Shown one piece after another: positions 3,874 to 56,871 of a stretch of 64,000 nt of DNA (its first letter is position 1; every line of letters begins with the position of its first letter). Under the pieces are notes generated by a model. That model did no database searches and was not told the DNA's origin. It saw only the letters and a program-made list of their open reading frames with translations. The position numbers and the translations under genes were made by a program. This DNA is from Dermabacteraceae bacterium TAE3-ERU27 (lineage in GTDB: Bacteria > Actinomycetota > Actinomycetes > Actinomycetales > Dermabacteraceae): the NCBI GenBank assembly GCA_019218415.1, contig JAHUUL010000002.1:124001-188000 (forward strand), read 5' to 3'.

Positions 3874-5031
3874 ATGAAGCAGCAGAGCGAAGAGACAGCT
3901 AACAACACGGCTTACCTGGTGCTGGAGGACGGCACCGTGTTTACCGGCCAGCCGTACGGGGCACGCGGGGAAACGCTGGGCGAGGTCGTCTTTACGACTG
4001 GCATGACCGGCTACCAGGAGACCCTGACCGACCCCTCCTATGCCGGTCAGATCGTCGTGCAGACCGCGCCGCACATCGGCAACACGGGCGTGAACGCGCA
4101 GGACATGGAGTCCACCCGGATCTGGGTCGAGGGCTACGTGGTGCGCGACCCCGCGCGGCGGCCCTCCAACTGGCGCAGCGAAAGCAGCCTGGACGAGGCG
4201 CTGATTGCCGGGGGAGTGGTCGGCATCAGCGGCATCGATACCCGTCAGCTCACCCGCCTGCTGCGCAGCGCGGGAGCCATGCGCGGCGGTATCTTCTCGG
4301 GCCTCGGCCTAAGCCGCGCCGAGATGCTGGAGAGGGTGCGTAACGCCCCCGGCATGGTTGGCGCTTCGTTCGTGGATCGCGTTACGGTCGCCCAGGCGCA
4401 GACCCTGGAACCGCAGGGGGAGTGCGTCGGCACCGTGGCCGTGGTGGATCTCGGCCTGAAGGCGGCCACGCCCCGCAACATGTGCGAACGCGGGCTGCGC
4501 GTGCATATCGTGCCGGCCGACGTCACCTGTGACGAGCTGCTGGCGCTGGGCGTGGACGCCGTGTTCTTCTCCAACGGGCCGGGGGATCCGGCGAGCGCGG
4601 AGCGGCAGGTGGCGCTGCTGCGCGAGGTGCTGGACCGGGGAATTCCCTACTTCGGGATCTGCTTCGGCAACCAGCTGCTGGGCCGGGCGCTCGGTTTTTC
4701 CACCTACAAGCTGCCTTTCGGCCATCGGGGGATCAACCAGCCGGTCTTGGATCGTGCCACCGGGCACGTCGAGATCACCGCGCATAATCACGGCTTCGCG
4801 GTGGACATCCCCCTGGAGGGGGAGAGCGTGGCGCCGCACGCTAACGGTCGCTACGGCCGGGTTCGCGTCAGCCACGTGGGGCTGAACGATGACGTGGTGG
4901 AGGGAATCGAGTGCCTGGACATTCCGGCGTTCTCGGTGCAGTACCACCCGGAGGCCGCGGCCGGGCCGCACGATGCCCTTTACCTGTTTGATCGTTTCGT
5001 TGCCATGGTGCGCAGCGCCAAGGAGTCCTGA
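3874..5031 (+). CDS. carA: Carbamoyl phosphate synthase small (glutaminase) subunit
   Basis: Hydrolyses glutamine and channels ammonia to CarB. The 385-residue protein has an N-terminal CarA domain ([15 protein letters not shown]) and a C-terminal class I glutamine amidotransferase domain with nucleophile Cys263 in GICFGNQ and the His358/Glu360 pair in YHPE. I chose the ATG at 3874, seven bases after the pyrC stop. A longer reading with a start at 3826 would lie inside pyrC and adds residues foreign to the family. Its stop shares one base with the carB start. Confidence 0.95.
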
Positions 5032-8000
5032 TGCCCGCTCGTAAAGATATTTCCTCAGTTCTAGTCATCGGCTCCGGCCCTATCGTGATCGGTCAGGCCT
5101 GCGAGTTCGACTATTCGGGTACCCAGGCCTGCCGCGTGCTGCGCGAGGAGGGGCTGCGGGTGATCCTCGTGAACTCGAACCCGGCAACGATCATGACGGA
5201 TCCCGAGATCGCGGACGCGACCTACGTGGAGCCGATCGAGGCGGGCATTATTCGTTCGATCATCGAGAAGGAACGCCCCGACGCGATCCTGCCTACCCTG
5301 GGCGGGCAGACCGCGCTTAACGCCGCTATCGAACTGGCCGAACGCGGCATCCTGGACGAGTTCGGCGTGGAGCTGATCGGTGCCTCGATTGACGCGATCA
5401 ACAAGGCGGAGGACCGCCAGCAGTTCAAGGACGTGGTGGAGCGTTGCGGCGCGGAATCTGCCCGCAGCGCTGTCTGCCACAGCATGGACGAGTGCCTGCG
5501 CGTGGCCGACGAGCTCGGTTATCCGCTGGTGGTGCGCCCGTCGTTCACGATGGGCGGCCTGGGCAGCGGCATGGCCTACGACGAGGCCGACCTGCGCCGC
5601 ATTGCGGGAGATGGCCTGCACTATTCCCCGACCAGTGAGGTGCTGCTGGAGGAGTCGATCCTCGGGTGGAAAGAGTTCGAGCTGGAGCTGATGCGCGACC
5701 GCAAGGATAACTGCGTGGTCGTCTGCTCTATCGAGAACGTGGACCCGGTGGGCGTGCATACCGGCGATTCGATCACGGTTGCCCCCGCCCTCACGCTCAC
5801 AGATGTGGAGCTGCAGAACCTGCGCAATATCGGCATTGCGATCATCCGCGAGGTCGGCGTGGACACGGGCGGCTGCAACGTGCAGTTCGCGGTGCACCCG
5901 GAGACCGGCCGCGTGGTAGTGATCGAGATGAACCCGCGTGTTTCGCGTTCCTCCGCGCTGGCGTCGAAGGCGACCGGTTTCCCGATCGCGAAGATCGCGG
6001 CGCGCCTCGCCATCGGCTACACGTTGGACGAGATCCGTAACGACATCACCGGTACCACCCCGGCCAGTTTCGAGCCCGCGCTCGATTACGTCGTGGTCAA
6101 GGTGCCGCGCTTCGCGTTCGAGAAGTTCCCCGGTGCGGACCCGACGCTGACCACCACGATGAAGAGCGTGGGTGAAGCCATGTCGCTGGGGCGCAACTTC
6201 AGCGAGGCGCTCGGCAAGGCACTGCGTAGCCTGGACGTGCCCGAGGTCGGTTTCGACTGGGCGGGGGAGCCGCCGAGCGAAGCCGAGGTTGCCGAGCTGT
6301 TGGAGGCGGTTAAGACCCCGACGGTGCAGCGCCTGGGGCAGGTGCAGAGGATCCTACGGGCGGCGGCCTGCGGGGGAAGCGATCCGGAAGAACTGATCGA
6401 GCGCCTCTACGCCGCTACGGGGATAGACCGCTGGTTCCTGGATCAGATCCTGCTGATTAACGAGATCGGCTCCAAGCTGCGCACGGCTGCGACCCTGGAC
6501 GAGGCGCTGCTGCGCGAGGCAAAGCGCCACGGTTTTTCGGACCTGCAGATCGGGCAGGTACGCCACCTGAGCGAGGACGTGGTGCGCGGCGTGCGCCGGG
6601 CGCTCGGCGTGACCCCCGTGTTCAAGACGGTCGATACCTGCGCGGCGGAGTTCGCTTCGCATACGCCCTACCACTATTCGGCGTACGACCACGAGAACGA
6701 GGTGCCCGCTAGGGAAAAGCCCGCCGTAATCATTCTGGGTTCCGGGCCGAACCGGATCGGCCAGGGGATCGAGTTCGACTATTCCTGCGTGCACGCGGCG
6801 CTCGCGCTGCGCGGCGGGGATTTCGACTACGAAACCGTGATGATCAACTGCAACCCGGAGACGGTATCTACCGACTACGACGTTGCTTCGCGCCTCTACT
6901 TCGAGCCGCTCACGTTCGAGGACGTGCTCGAGGTGTACACGGTGGAAAGCGCCGCCGGGCCGGTGGCGGGCGTGATCGTGCAGCTTGGCGGGCAGACGCC
7001 GCTGAAGCTGGCGCAGCGCCTGCAGGACGCGGGGCTGCCGATCATCGGCACCAGCCCCGAGGCGATAGACGCGGCTGAGGACAGAGGGGTGTTCGGGGGA
7101 GTGCTCACCAGGGCACAGCTTCCGGCACCGCCCTACGGCACCGCCTGGGCCCTCGAAGACGCCCTCGAAGTGGCGTCCCGGATCGGCTATCCGGTGCTGG
7201 TGCGCCCCAGCTACGTGCTGGGCGGGCGCGGCATGGAGATCGTCTACGACGAACCGCAGCTGCGCGATTACGTCAGCCGCAACCTGCCGGATGGCGGTAG
7301 GGCGGAGGCCCCGATCCTGATCGATCGCTTCCTGGACACGGCGATCGAAATCGACGTGGATGCGCTCTATGACTGCGAGGAGCTGTTCATCGGCGGCGTC
7401 ATGGAACACATCGAGGAGGCCGGTATTCACTCGGGCGATTCGGCCTGCACCATCCCGCCGGTTTCCCTTTCGCACGCAGAACTGGAAAGGATTCGCCGCT
7501 CGACCGAGGCAATCGCGGCGGGCGTCGGCGTGCGCGGCCTGCTAAATATTCAGTTCGCGCTGACGCAGGACATCCTCTACGTGCTCGAAGCCAATCCGCG
7601 TGCTTCGCGCACGGTGCCCTTCGTTTCCAAGGCGACCGGCGTGCCGCTGGCGCGCGCCGCCGCGCTGCTGATGGCCGGTAAGAGCATCTCCCAGATGCGC
7701 GCCGACGGTCTGCTGCCGGAGGGCGACATGACCCACCTGCCGCTGGACGCCCCCATCGCGGTGAAGGAGGCCGTGCTGCCCTTCAAGCGCTTCCGCACGG
7801 CGGAGGGCCGCAGCGTGGATTCGGTGCTCGGGCCGGAGATGCGCTCGACGGGAGAGGTGATGGGCTTGGCCCAGACCTTCCCCCGGGCTTTCGCCAAGGC
7901 CCAGCTGGGTATTTCCGGCAAGGGGCTGCCCGAGGCCGGCACGGTATTCGTATCGGTGGCCGACAGGGACAAACGCGCCGTGGTGTTCCCGGTGAAGCGT

Positions 8001-13683: not shown

Positions 13684-14210
13684 AGCGGGGGAGCTGGCTG
13701 TGGCTGGCGCTCCTGTGCGCGGGAGGGGCCTTTTTGACCTCCCGGGCGGACTGGTACGTGCTCACCGTGACGGGCATCGGCGGCAGGCAGGAACAGCTAC
13801 CGGTTTCCGGCGTCGTGGCGTTCCCGCTCGGGGTGGCTTTGCAGCTGGCTCTTTTTGCGGCGCTGATCGGCTTGTACCTGGCCAAGCTGCGCCCGCTACG
13901 GGTGGTGCTTGCCGTGACCGCCGGAGCGCTTTCATTGTTTTTATGTGCGCTCCCGTTTACCTCGCCGGTGCTGTCGGTCGCGGAGATTCCGGGAGGGGCG
14001 CTTAGCGCCACGCAAGCCTCTCACTGGTGGCTTCCCTTCTGCCTGGTCGCCCTCGGCGGCGGCCTGTGCGCGCTGCTTTCGCTACGCGCGGCGGACTCCA
14101 AACCGCGCCAGCAAGCCGCTGGCGGCGTTAACGAAGAACCGGACTCCGCACAGATCTGGGATGCCCTCTCCGCGGGCGAGGATCCGACTGCGCGCGGTAG
14201 CGCGAGCTGA
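13680..14210 (+). CDS. Trp biosynthesis-associated membrane protein family (TIGR02234-like)
   Basis: Predicted integral membrane protein of 176 residues, function unknown. Visible are an N-terminal hydrophobic segment ([24 protein letters not shown] begins it), two central segments and a fourth near residue 120, then a polar cytosolic-type tail. The N-terminal helix ending in W before a TVTG motif is typical of the family found beside tryptophan genes in actinobacteria. GTG 13680 overlaps the hisI stop by four bases; a longer reading from 13638 would lie inside hisI. No trp structural gene is in the window. Confidence 0.75.
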
Positions 14211-50854: not shown

Positions 50855-53011
50855 GTGATTGAGAACTCGCTTATTGTTGCCATCGACGGCCCTTCGGGCT
50901 CCGGCAAGTCCACCGTTTCTCGGCGCCTTGCTGCCGAGCTGGGCGGCGGCTACGTAGATACCGGCTCCATGTACCGGGTCGTTACCTGGTATTGCCTGCG
51001 CGAAGGCATTGACCTAGACGACCGCTTTGCGGTGGCCCGCGCGGCGAGCGAGCTGGATCTGCGTCTTTGCACCGACCCGGAGGCACCCGCCGTTGCGGTG
51101 GGAGAGACGATCCTGGGCGATGAGATCCGCAGCGAAGAGATTTCTAGCCAGGTTTCCCGCGTCGCCACCAACCTCGATGTACGCGCGGTGCTACAGCAGC
51201 GCCAGCGCGAGATCATCAGCCAGACCGCTAAGCGGCACGGCTCCTGCGTGGCCGAGGGGCGAGACATCACCACCGTGGTTTATCCGGACGCTGACGTGCG
51301 TATCCTGCTCACCGCGAGTGAGGAGGCCCGCATGGCGCGCCGGGCGAAGGAACTCAACATCGGTGAGGTGAGCGATGCCGACGTGGCACAGCGGATGCAG
51401 GATCAGGTGCTGCGCCGCGACCGTGACGATGCCACCGTCTCCCAGTTCCTGACCGCGCCCGACGGCGTGACCACGATCGATACCTCCGAGATGGGGATCG
51501 ACGAAGTGGTGGCGGCGGTGCTGTCTCTCACCGAGGCAACCGGAGCGCTGCCGGGCGAAGACGCGGACGCTTACGACGACGACACCGTTGAGGCAGCCTG
51601 GCGCAGCGGCCTGGAAGAGTACGAACTCGATGAGGACGACCGGGCCCTCCTGGACGGCGAGATCCCCACGGAACACGAGGGCGAGGTGCGCCGCACCCTG
51701 CCGGTACTGGCCGTGGTGGGACGCCCGAACGTAGGTAAATCCACGCTCGTAAACCGCATCCTGGGCAGGCGCGAGGCCGTGGTCGAAGACGTCCCCGGCG
51801 TTACCCGTGACCGCGTGCTTTACCCGGCTGATTGGGCCGGGCGAGACTTCATGCTGGTGGATACCGGCGGCTGGGAAGGCCGCGTGCAGGGTATTTCTTA
51901 CCGCATCGCGGAACAGGCCGAAATCGCCGTGGAAATGGCCGATGCGATCCTGTTCGTGGTCGACGCCACCGTGGGGGTTACCGAGACGGATCAGCAGCTC
52001 GTAAAGGTGCTGCGCCGCTCCGGTAAGCCGGTTGTGGTCGCCGCCAACAAGGTAGACGACGAACGCGGCGAGCTTGAGGCGGCGGCGCTGTGGAACCTGG
52101 GCCTCGGCGAGCCCTACCCGGTGTCGGGCCTGCACGGCCGCGGCTCCGGCGATCTGCTCGATGCCGTGATGGCGGTACTCCCGAAGGAAGGCAAGGCTCT
52201 CGCGCCCTACGCCGGGCCGCGCCGCGTGGCGCTGATCGGCCGACCCAACGTCGGTAAGTCCTCGCTGCTGAACAGGCTCGCGGGGGAGAACCGCGTGGTT
52301 GTCGATTCGACCGCGGGCACCACCCGCGATCCGGTCGATGAAAAGATCGAGCTGGGTGGCAAGGAATGGATCTTCGTGGATACCGCGGGTATTCGCCGCC
52401 GCATCCACAACCACCAGGGGGCGGAGTTTTACGCCTCGCTGCGCACCCAGTCAGCCCTGGAGAAGGCCGAGGTGGCGATCGTGCTGCTGGAGGCCAGCGA
52501 GCCGATCTCCTCCCAGGACCTAAAGATCATCGATACGGTGGTTGAATCCGGGCGAGCCCTGGTGCTGGCGTTCAACAAGTGGGATCTGATCGACGAAGAG
52601 CGCCACAAGCAGCTCGAATATGAGATCGCCACCGATCTGGCACACGTCGCCTGGGCGCCGCGCGTCAATATTTCGGCAGAGACGGGCCGTGCGGTCAACA
52701 AGCTGGTTCCGGCGCTGGAGACCGCGTTGGAATCTTGGGACGCACGCATCCCCACCGGCAGGTTGAACGCGTTCCTGGGCACCCTGGTGGCGGCGCACCC
52801 GCACCCCCTGCGGGGCGGAAAGCAGCCGCGCATTCTCTTTGCGACCCAGGCACGCAGCAGGCCGCCGCGTTTCGTGGTGTTTGCGACCGGCTTCCTGGAG
52901 CACGGCTACCGTCGCTTCATCGAACGCCGTCTGCGCGAGGACTTCCAGTTCCCCGGTACCCCGATCGAGATCGGCGTACGTATACGCGAGAAGAGAAAGG
53001 GACGGCGCTAG
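50855..53011 (+). CDS. cmk-der: Fused cytidylate kinase / ribosome-assembly GTPase Der
   Basis: A 718-residue bifunctional protein. Residues 1-225 are CMP kinase (P-loop [10 protein letters not shown] at 11-20, [19 protein letters not shown]). Residues 226-280 are an acidic linker rich in D and E. Residues 282-718 are Der/EngA with two GTPase domains, GRPNVGKST at 289-297 and GRPNVGKSS at 462-470, their NKVD and NKWD guanine motifs, and a C-terminal KH-like domain. Separate but adjacent genes in mycobacteria; fused forms are known in several actinobacteria. GTG 50855 lacks a Shine-Dalgarno. Confidence 0.96.
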
Positions 53012-54171: not shown

Positions 54172-55593
54172 TCAATACGTACCTGCCTGCGCGTCCGCCT
54201 CGTCTGCGGGCAGCGCGGGATCTCTGCTGAGCGTTACCCTGTGTTCGCTTATCACCTCCGCTTCGAGGTAGCGGCCAACTGCGCCATCTTTCAGGTGTTT
54301 TATGCGGGAATCGCTGGCTTCTAGCCGGTTCAGGGTGCCGACGTAACCGGTGCCGTCTTTAGGGGCGGTGTCGTGGTTGCTGATTAGCGTAGGCATGGGG
54401 TTAAACAGTTCTTCGGCTTTTTGTGGGTAGCCGGGAAGAGAAATTTCTTGCACGCGATGGTTTTCTGGATTTAGGTCTAGCGCAGGCACTGGGTCGCCGC
54501 TAAATCCGAGCACGGTGGGAGGCAGCGGAGCCGGGAGCGATATCGGCTTGGCCCGCAGTTCGTGGCTTAGGTTGGCTACCCCGGTTTCGCTGCGCGCCGG
54601 ATGGAATTGCTGCACGGGGGAACCGGCGCTCAATACCTGCTCTACCCGGTAGCTTCCCGGCTTGCCGCTCGCGTTGTTAAAGGTGGGATCGGACGCGAGG
54701 GAGGCCGCGATTAGCCCTCCCTGGGAATGACCCACCAACATGATTTTTGCGCCCGGCGGAACGAGCGGTTTACCGTCCGGGCCTCTCGCCCGCATCGCGG
54801 CCCGCACCGCGCGCATGCTGTCTGATTCCTGACCGGAGCCGGCAACCAGGTTGCTGGCCCAGTCCTGCGGGTTCTTTTGGCCCCACCAGCCGGATGCCGC
54901 AATCATATTGCTTTCCGTGGGTGGTATTTGCACCAGATAGATAGTCTCACCGCGCTTGTCGCGCATTTTCTGGATCGCAACCTGGCTAAAGTCCCGTGCG
55001 GGGAGCGTGCCGCCATGCCCGTCGGGAGGGTCCGTGCGCAGCGTAGCGTTTGCCAGAAAGAGGCCCGCCAGGTCACGAGCCGCCCTAGGGTGGGAGACGG
55101 CGCTGACGGCCGCCACGGAAACTTCTGCGCCGCTCATGTTCTCGGGTAGCGCCCGGTCTATGAGGGGCAGGGAAGCGGCCTGGAGCAGATACCAGTAGCT
55201 TGCCGCGGCTACCCGCCGTGAAAGCGGAGCGTCTGTCTCTGTGGCAGTTTCCCAGGCCGCCTGTTTAGCGTTCGCAGCGTTTCGCTGCAGCTGCTGTTCC
55301 CCAGGCAGCGGCAACGGTGGGGGAGCAAGGCACATCGGAGCGGAAGCGTAATCCTGCGCATCGGCCTCAGCACGGAGCTGCTGGGCAAGTTCCGCGCTCT
55401 CCCGCCGAATCGGTGATAGGCGCAGCCTGCACAGCGCACCGATTTTCTCCCGGTAGGCCTGCGCGTCGGGGCCGTGCCAGTTAGCCGATTGAACGTTTTC
55501 AAGTGCCGTGGTGAGGCGCAGCAGGGCGTATTCCAGGCGGTCCATCGTTAACGCCGTTTGCCGCGCCTGCTCCGTATCCATTCCCTGAAACAC
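54172..55593 (-). CDS. Alpha/beta-hydrolase (lipase-like) with WXG100-like N-terminus
   Basis: A 473-residue protein. Residues 1-75 form predicted helices with a WHG turn (Trp39-Gly41, then GPDAQAYREKI), resembling the WXG100/ESX-substrate hairpin of actinobacterial type VII secretion clients. The rest contains an alpha/beta-hydrolase core with nucleophile elbow GHSQGG (Ser291), a likely acidic residue Asp367 in SGDPVP and a likely His407 in SNHDT. It has no Sec signal peptide. GTG 55593 has AGGAGG ten bases upstream. It converges with the NUDIX gene, three bases apart. Substrate and export are inferred, and no secretion genes are nearby. Confidence 0.75.
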   Translation of the reverse strand: MFQGMDTEQARQTALTMDRLEYALLRLTTALENVQSANWHGPDAQAYREKIGALCRLRLSPIRRESAELAQQLRAEADAQDYASAPMCLAPPPLPLPGEQQLQRNAANAKQAAWETATETDAPLSRRVAAASYWYLLQAASLPLIDRALPENMSGAEVSVAAVSAVSHPRAARDLAGLFLANATLRTDPPDGHGGTLPARDFSQVAIQKMRDKRGETIYLVQIPPTESNMIAASGWWGQKNPQDWASNLVAGSGQESDSMRAVRAAMRARGPDGKPLVPPGAKIMLVGHSQGGLIAASLASDPTFNNASGKPGSYRVEQVLSAGSPVQQFHPARSETGVANLSHELRAKPISLPAPLPPTVLGFSGDPVPALDLNPENHRVQEISLPGYPQKAEELFNPMPTLISNHDTAPKDGTGYVGTLNRLEASDSRIKHLKDGAVGRYLEAEVISEHRVTLSRDPALPADEADAQAGTY

Positions 55594-55801: not shown

Positions 55802-55878
<77 letters not shown>

Positions 55879-55881
55879 AAT

Positions 55882-55914
55882 AGGTCCCGGAAACTTCGGT
55901 TTCCGGGACCTTTT
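55882..55914 (+). terminator. Terminator of tRNA-Pro
   Basis: A 13-bp stem (55882-55894 with 55899-55911) capped by the stable TTCG tetraloop; the stem's last U begins a TTTT tract (55911-55914). Confidence 0.92.
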
Positions 55915-56238
55915 AGTTTCCCTGCGTTTGCGTGCACAGTATCCCCACCTGCCCCAGGCTTCACACCCTCGCCAAGGCTCCCGAAAGCCCTGCACGGTTA
56001 ACCGCCGCGATAGATTGTCGGGGGTGACGCTTAGGATGAGCAGCAAGCGAGTGGCTCGTATTTAGGCGCAGGTTGATTCCATAACACGCTTTGGCTGTGC
56101 AGCGACACGCGTTAGTCCTGTAAAGCATCCGGGAATCCCGAAGCCGATTGCGCTGCGCACGCGTTCACACAGATAGAGAACAGAAAATTTCATCGGTTCA
56201 CCCGAGGAGGCCTAAGCATTCCCTTCGGTGAACAAAGG
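55915..56238. other. Non-coding stretch between tRNA-Pro and the orphan gene
   Basis: No convincing gene or tRNA-end duplication was found in these 324 bases. CACGCGTT occurs twice (56106-56113 and 56158-56165). Base composition becomes AT-richer from about 56170. A hairpin with a Shine-Dalgarno-like GAGGAGG lies at its 3' end. A minus-strand frame of 43 residues (56193-56062) has no supporting ribosome-binding site. Confidence 0.6.
56196..56233 (+). promoter_or_regulatory. Hairpin covering a Shine-Dalgarno-like site before the orphan gene
   Basis: GTTCACC (56196-56202) pairs with GGTGAAC (56227-56233); after one mismatch four further pairs form inside. GAGGAGG (56204-56210) is partly inside this stem, and the ATG at 56239 follows five bases after it. 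It could gate translation or be an operator dyad. Confidence 0.45.
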
Positions 56239-56871
56239 ATGAAACATATCTATTTATGGGGGTGCAAATTGTTAGGGACGATTATCGATGAAAAATACAA
56301 GGGTATGCCGAGCGAAATTCCTGACGGTCATTACAAAATGGTCGAAATAAACGGCGATGATGTAGTTTTTTCATGTGTTCCAGTTTTGGTTAAAGACCTG
56401 CTGGTGTTCATGTATTACCCTTCGACAGATATGTGGCATCTAGAGGAGGAACCTTCTAGATACACCATCGTTCCTGACTATGAAGAATTCATCTTTGTTC
56501 CGACAGATTTAGAAAGCCTGATCGCTTTAATGAAGACTGGCCGGAAAATACCTCGCCGAGGCAGTGGTGTGGGGCATCTGATGTCTTTGGAATCTCAGCC
56601 GGCCAATGAGCGGAAATTCAACGCTGAGGTGGGTCTCTTTCGCGATGGAGGAAAGATCTTCAAGAAGGAGATGGTTAAGGTCTTGGGAATGCTTGAGTCC
56701 GGAGATACCAGACTCGTTGCGCGATACCCGGAGGCTAAGAGAACTAATGCCCTTACGCTGGCAGGCGAAATCAACGCCGGTAAAAAGGCCATGTTGGCTG
56801 GCCTCTCACTGAAAGCCGAAGCCTTTCAGGATAAGGACGGCACCTGGGTTGTTTCGGTCACGAAACAGTGA
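56239..56871 (+). CDS. Orphan protein of unknown function, AT-rich gene
   Basis: I do not recognise this 210-residue protein. It has no signal peptide, membrane segment or catalytic motif that I can name. The N-terminal half is rich in tyrosine, aspartate and glutamate, then comes a basic stretch RKIPRRGSG near residue 102. The C-terminal half is lysine-rich and ends WVVSVTKQ. The gene is visibly AT-richer than all its neighbours and uses many A/T third bases, suggesting recent acquisition. ATG 56239 has only AAAGG touching it; ATG at residue 23 is an alternative start. A weak TTTCGCC/GGCGAAA dyad follows the stop. Confidence 0.7.
   Translation: MKHIYLWGCKLLGTIIDEKYKGMPSEIPDGHYKMVEINGDDVVFSCVPVLVKDLLVFMYYPSTDMWHLEEEPSRYTIVPDYEEFIFVPTDLESLIALMKTGRKIPRRGSGVGHLMSLESQPANERKFNAEVGLFRDGGKIFKKEMVKVLGMLESGDTRLVARYPEAKRTNALTLAGEINAGKKAMLAGLSLKAEAFQDKDGTWVVSVTKQ

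Follow-up and report, generated by a model that had tools for sequence, protein, structure and literature searches.

A solitary gene behind tRNA-Pro in a Dermabacteraceae bacterium, a probable and strongly diverged member of the third-gene family of toxSAS operons

What is an AT-rich gene without library matches doing behind a tRNA gene in an actinobacterial genome? The question is raised by a 64,000-nucleotide stretch of DNA from Dermabacteraceae bacterium TAE3-ERU27 (the window; its host genome is 2.0 Mb in 37 contigs, and the assembly is 98% complete). The first-pass annotation of the window had described an orphan gene, outside any recognised family and a candidate for recent acquisition, behind a translation-gating hairpin. 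An ORF of 210 codons was confirmed at 56239-56871 (plus strand), and 360 bases separate its ATG from tRNA-Pro(GGG) (55802-55878, plus strand, ARAGORN). The tRNA is followed by a terminator-like hairpin of 13 pairs with a T-rich tail (55882-55911, plus strand). In a sister species, Dermabacteraceae bacterium TAE3-ERU5, the same gene (88% identical) stands behind the same tRNA, and the terminator-like hairpin is unchanged. GC content of the ORF was 0.471, versus 0.645 for the remainder of the window. Among 91 window bins of 700 bp, bin 56001-56700 had the lowest GC (0.479), and the second lowest (0.557) was the bin that contains the tail of the ORF. The ORF, its AT-richness, the tRNA and the leader hairpin were thus all located as first described. 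Searches of Pfam, NCBIfam, PHROGs and PADLOC with the window protein gave no model match, and for these four libraries the absence of a family was borne out.

Neighbouring genes were also inspected. A single 718-residue ORF at 50855-53011 is presumably a cytidylate kinase fused to GTPase Der. The tRNA-adjacent ORF of 473 residues at 54172-55593 (minus strand) gave weak, below-cut-off matches to a T7SS signal domain (E 0.0095) and to alpha/beta hydrolases, and it had the highest omega (0.19) of six neighbours compared between the two species.

The start codon was reconsidered by comparison with the sister species. The leader hairpin (56196-56233, plus strand; arms 56196-56202 and 56227-56233) covers GAGGAGG at 56204-56210, and its 3' end lies five bases before ATG-56239. 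Its energy over 56188-56250 was better than that of shuffled sequences (z -3.28; none of 200 shuffles equal), and the sister sequence retains the hairpin (z -2.79, with 2 of 200 shuffles as good). However, the sister species has a 10-base gap in place of ATG-56239; from two genomes, loss of this codon there and its gain in the window species cannot be told apart. Because ATG-56239 falls in this gap, translation probably begins at TTG-56269 or ATG-56305, and the start given previously was abandoned. TTG-56269 is common to both species and lies six bases 3' of GGGGG; the likely coding sequence from this codon is 56269-56871 (plus strand, 200 codons). The energy of the upstream ribosome duplex was -12.0 for TTG-56269 versus -6.0 for ATG-56239, and the median of 582 window ATGs was -3.9. 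ATG-56305 is also possible, because proteins of relatives start at about residue 28 in the alignment and residues 3-22 evolve faster (dN 0.18 versus 0.05, from few sites); its duplex energy is weak (-4.1 in the window species and -0.6 in the sister). GAGGAGG lies outside Shine-Dalgarno distance of both shared starts. Since it serves neither of them, and ATG-56239 is missing in the sister, the proposal that the hairpin gates translation is not supported.

Comparison of the window and sister copies over residues 23-210 revealed 69 changes, of which 48 were synonymous and 21 nonsynonymous (omega 0.094, dS 0.53); dS of six neighbour genes was 0.14-0.56. The frame was open over 188 codons in both species, and third positions took 46 of the 69 changes. 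These dS and omega values indicate that the gene predates the split of the two species and is constrained. It is under purifying selection at the same spot in both. In residues 23-60 (window 56305-56418), the 38 codons had just 3 changes at third positions, versus 43 in the other 150 codons; this low synonymous change is unusual and coincides with the start of the family core. A functionless, decaying remnant of a lost operon could account for absent partner genes and for an ATG lacking in one of two species, but the frame kept open over 188 codons, the excess of third-position changes and the low omega argue against such decay, which we consider extremely unlikely.

GC content of the window and sister copies was ~17 points lower than that of their surroundings, whereas 16 other family members compared were within ~6 points of theirs. 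This deficit therefore speaks for an earlier acquisition from an unsampled AT-richer source. Acquisition as first suggested is thus favoured by composition, but it counts as recent only within limits; the event is dated only as before the split of the two species. A search of the window for a repeat of the tRNA end, such as an attachment site would show, was negative; the sole 12-mer that recurs elsewhere lies on the minus strand at 13882. The best matches of the neighbouring mycothiol-S-transferase gene outside the genus were ~50% identical, and no tRNA was present in 28 loci outside the genus that were compared by means of this neighbour (~1.5 kb on each side).

Relatives of the gene were found by searches of increasing depth. 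Of 98 genomes searched directly, 3 carried the gene (its own, the sister, and a Brachybacterium genome with B. kimchii plasmid pCBA3104-01). In the order, a three-row profile detected relatives in 6 of 396 genomes and an eleven-row profile in 7 of 396; the eleven-row profile also gave 6 of 197 in the family of genome G396, and a seven-row profile gave 7 of 396 related genomes. Across the class, the seven-row profile detected the gene in 1 of 394 genomes, namely its own, and yielded no new member; this class-wide search first scores few candidates per genome and may miss distant members. Among plasmids, 7 Curtobacterium records, 2 of Clavibacter and 1 of Glutamicibacter carried further members. 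Phages yielded no match by tblastn, and no relative was found in viral contigs. Other family members that were tested gave no model at cut-off in Pfam, NCBIfam and PADLOC (PHROGs was searched with the window protein only). The branch leading to the window copy is long, at 2.0 changes per column.

Gene context was read at 17 loci that contain a family member. In 9 of these (L018, L062, L063, L064, L065, L057, L058, L060 and, with a diverged partner, L059), a RelA/SpoT-type synthetase gene lies directly 5' of the member; synthetases of L062-L065 were assigned by alignment. An HD hydrolase gene belongs to the same group in 7 of the 9, upstream in six and downstream in L064; it was not seen in L063 (691 bases upstream examined) or L059. 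Three Brachybacterium loci (L017, L019, L055) have an HD gene and no synthetase. The remaining five have neither: the window, the sister, the B. kimchii plasmid (20 kb searched), L066 with two members in tandem, and L016, a fragment that was excluded from later alignments.

The loci without a synthetase vary in layout. At L017, L019 and L055 (genomes G024, G026 and G033, of the same genus as the B. kimchii genome), the HD gene is directly followed by a member whose C-terminal part is replaced; these C-terminal parts do not align and were trimmed from the alignments. The three loci are toxin-less two-gene versions of the operon, and a metallophosphoesterase-like gene follows at L019 and L055. 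At L066 (G766), the tandem members (1396-2028 and 2067-2705) lie downstream of a gene read by eye as FtsK-like. The member on the B. kimchii plasmid has an FtsK/SpoIIIE gene nearby, as well as an HNH gene of GmrSD type.

Assignment of the partner genes was supported by several searches. All five HD proteins tested matched Pfam HD_4 above cut-off, and the HDxxED motif was kept in 10 of 10 HD proteins examined. For the middle proteins, 4 of 5 tested matched Pfam RelA_SpoT with E-values of 6.6e-6 to 5.3e-4, all below cut-off, and the L018 synthetase matched solved chain 8vx3 (SaSAS) with an E-value of 1.4e-17. The YKGxH loop was kept in 8 of 9 synthetases. The exception is the Glutamicibacter plasmid locus L059, where the diverged synthetase-like partner (4291-5522) lacks the loop and has a profile E-value of 1.1e-7 and no Pfam match; the member after this gene is absent from the distributed gene table. 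A Rhodococcus plasmid that was outside the training of the HD and synthetase profiles showed the same gene order, with E-values of 2e-55 (HD) and 3e-86 (synthetase). In NCBIfam, two synthetases matched a stretch of very long XopAD-type models (E 1.3e-17 and 5.7e-15, far below cut-off), a match that we read as a shared RelA/SpoT-like domain. PADLOC gave no useful match for seven operon proteins, the one row being GajB at E 0.007. Stretches that resemble the FaRel-like synthetases were also present in 17 records of Streptococcus, Pasteurella, Mannheimia, Haemophilus and Aggregatibacter phages (e.g., L079, 501-1022; 24-31% identity; E-values down to 2e-10). Most of these are annotated as head proteins, and a capsid protein may here carry a domain that resembles alarmone synthetases.

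A profile was built from nine third genes of these operons. The training set excluded the window gene, the sister gene and all solo genes, and the Rhodococcus third gene (L078) entered it by position. Among 566 window ORFs, this profile recovered the window ORF, read from stop to stop, with an E-value of 8.9e-13, versus 0.17 for the runner-up; the alignment spans residues 56-199 and covers both domains. The profile is non-circular in its training but not in its discovery, since the operon genes were reached by searches seeded with the window protein; operon context is the part of the family evidence that is independent of this circularity. The reverse test was weak: a profile built from the three solo genes in Dermabacteraceae matched L057 and L058 with E-values of 0.03-0.04, and L078 with 0.96. 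The window gene very likely belongs to the third-gene family of these HD/synthetase operons, judging from its sequence. It is therefore not familyless, and the term orphan fails at the family level, where relatives exist, and stands only in that the usual operon partners are absent. In combination, the original picture of a recent, familyless gene translated from ATG-56239 under hairpin control could draw on low GC, a tRNA neighbour, a hairpin better than its shuffles and the lack of a library match. It is already largely refuted by the family, by the gene at the same place in a sister species without the ATG, by the better ribosome site before the shared TTG and by the start of relatives near residue 28, and we hold it to be very unlikely.

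Alignments and a structure model divide the protein into two domains. The N-terminal family domain (residues 23-118; 56305-56592, plus strand) is strand-rich in the model, with one loop below pLDDT 50. Within it, YYPSTDMWH is the counterpart of YxPNTxxWH in relatives. The C-terminal domain (residues 143-210; 56665-56868, plus strand) is modelled as alpha-beta-alpha-beta-beta with pLDDT of about 95. The model, made from 13 alignment rows, was good (pLDDT 87); an earlier model from 7 rows was poor (pLDDT 51.7). The N-terminal part had no usable fold match. Foldseek of the model against PDB and BFVD gave nothing at E 0.001 or better; in BFVD, short uncharacterised phage proteins appeared at probability 1.00 but with E-values of about 0.02. 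VIA-align comparison gave no Z of 5 or more, and its rows for the C-terminal domain were common alpha/beta folds. Tis1 (6OX6) and CapRel (7ZTB) were not among the best 50 fold matches, a result that excludes nothing. PDB sequence search with the profiles returned chance-level rows only.

What might a third gene of this kind do? According to the accessible portion of PMC11782079, faRel of Cellulomonas marina encodes a (pp)pApp synthetase toxin and is flanked by aTfaRel (small alarmone hydrolase) and aT2faRel. The aT2faRel product is a type II antitoxin; neutralisation of the toxin resides in its Tis1-like N-terminal domain, and a sensory role is suggested there for its C-terminal domain, which is pseudo-zinc-finger-like. 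The loop tyrosine is residue 174 in the nearest synthetases of our set (L063 and L064), versus 175 in FaRel (PMC11782079). We describe the family as apparently of aT2faRel kind on the basis of operon position rather than sequence or fold. By this analogy, the third-gene family probably has an antitoxin role. For the window copy itself, operon position in relatives and the published analogue put the chances of antitoxin activity at about even.

The partner genes were then sought around the window gene and in its genome. Among the 566 window ORFs, no HD ORF was found at E 1, and no synthetase ORF was better than E 0.79. A FaRel-like synthetase profile (E 0.01) had no hit in any of 8 genomes with synthetase-less members, the window genome included. 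The same profile found a synthetase in all 5 genomes that supplied its rows and in none of 3 further family genomes (16 genomes in total); it misses even housekeeping Rel, and a diverged toxin could escape it. Because no cognate synthetase was found in the genome, the likeliest present use would be as a guard against incoming toxSAS. We favour, at a probability of roughly 0.5, the reading that the window gene is a stand-alone, strongly diverged member of the toxSAS antitoxin family and acts as an orphan antitoxin. Its product would bind a FaRel-type synthetase and block the acceptor-nucleotide site, as in the analogy of the aT2faRel product, and (pp)pApp-like alarmones would not be made. The operons countered in this way would be those arriving on plasmids or from competitors. 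Against this reading, the long branch fits a changed function, no use has been demonstrated for an antitoxin that lacks its toxin, and the family is rare in the class.

That long branch, together with the absence of a partner in the genome, is what a repurposed relative would also show: a protein of antitoxin-family descent that has lost synthetase binding and now has another role, such as sensor or regulator. The family does leave its operon, as in the L066 tandem without a synthetase and in L017, L019 and L055, where the exchanged C-terminal part stands beside an HD gene; the sensory role suggested for the C-terminal domain of the aT2faRel product (PMC11782079) points the same way. However, both domains of the window protein are recognisable and colinear with those of operon members, and strong purifying selection would be expected under any conserved role and does not discriminate. 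We regard repurposing as possible, though doubtful. A second alternative concerns the target: as an orphan, the protein would confer immunity to alarmone synthetases that competitors secrete, and not to plasmid addiction. PMC12691689 describes alarmone synthetases that Streptomyces exports, and putative immunity genes and genes for type VII secretion lie next to some of them; the tRNA-adjacent gene at 54172-55593 has the weak T7SS-signal match mentioned above. The HD hydrolase in 7 of 9 synthetase loci is nevertheless the plan of a toxin-antitoxin module, and the immunity role appears unlikely.

The region upstream of the candidate orphan antitoxin contains a possible regulatory site. P1, the DNA-damage promoter motif of the mycobacterial PafBC regulon, has the consensus tTGTCRgtg-8nt-TannnT (PMC5656591, accessible text). 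The sequence TTGTCGGGG-GTGACGCT-TAGGAT at 56015-56037 (plus strand; TTGTCGGGG-8nt-TAGGAT) fits this consensus save one weak position: all capital-letter positions match, and 11 of 12 scored positions agree with the mycobacterial pattern. It is the only site with 11/12 in the window and the only strict-pattern match in its own genome; the motif was spotted by eye and the strict pattern written afterwards, so that the match is post hoc. The motif is present in both species, and the two differences within it in the sister are both in the spacer, the fixed positions being kept. Elsewhere in the genome, five sites differ from the pattern by one mismatch (one of them in the reversed-pattern control); they are not clearly promoters and do not resemble a regulon. 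For background, a score of at least 9 occurred in 21 of 142 window stretches of 450 bases.

The likeness to the PafBC regulon of mycobacteria, as far as it is set out in the accessible parts of PMC5656591, PMC6789036 and PMC11804915, lies in the upstream P1 motif and in two adjacent WYL-domain genes of the host (C12:220907-222098), which are PafB- and PafC-like. In contrast to that regulon, the window site is a candidate, and the motif was absent upstream of the operons or genes of 16 relatives (best 9/12; some upstream stretches were short). Single-stranded DNA is reported to activate PafBC (PMC11804915), so a plasmid that enters as a single strand could itself raise the antitoxin before its toxSAS is able to act. 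Such a device, in which a chromosomal orphan toxSAS antitoxin under a PafBC promoter would counter addiction, is a speculative and quite improbable arrangement; if the PafBC site is real, it would tie the antitoxin to sensing of single-stranded DNA.

The operons of relatives resemble the C. marina aTfaRel-faRel-aT2faRel operon in consisting of an HD gene, a synthetase gene and a third gene, and the third genes resemble aT2faRel in encoding a two-domain protein in actinobacterial hosts. The window gene differs in being solitary, and the search of its genome gave no such synthetase. No orphan of a toxSAS third-gene family was met in the literature searched or in the accessible portion of PMC11782079. 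What looked like an orphan is best placed on a branch of toxSAS third genes that is missing from the libraries searched. In several genera of actinobacteria the family serves as a marker of plasmid-borne toxSAS operons, and no model in those libraries reached its cut-off with the members tested. Toxin-less members, present in at least four separate settings, are natural test cases for antitoxins that outlive their toxins and for protection against incoming elements. Orphan antitoxins of type II toxin-antitoxin systems are a known class. The window gene is like these in being a putative antitoxin-type gene without a toxin, and it differs from them in its family, which is that of toxSAS third genes.
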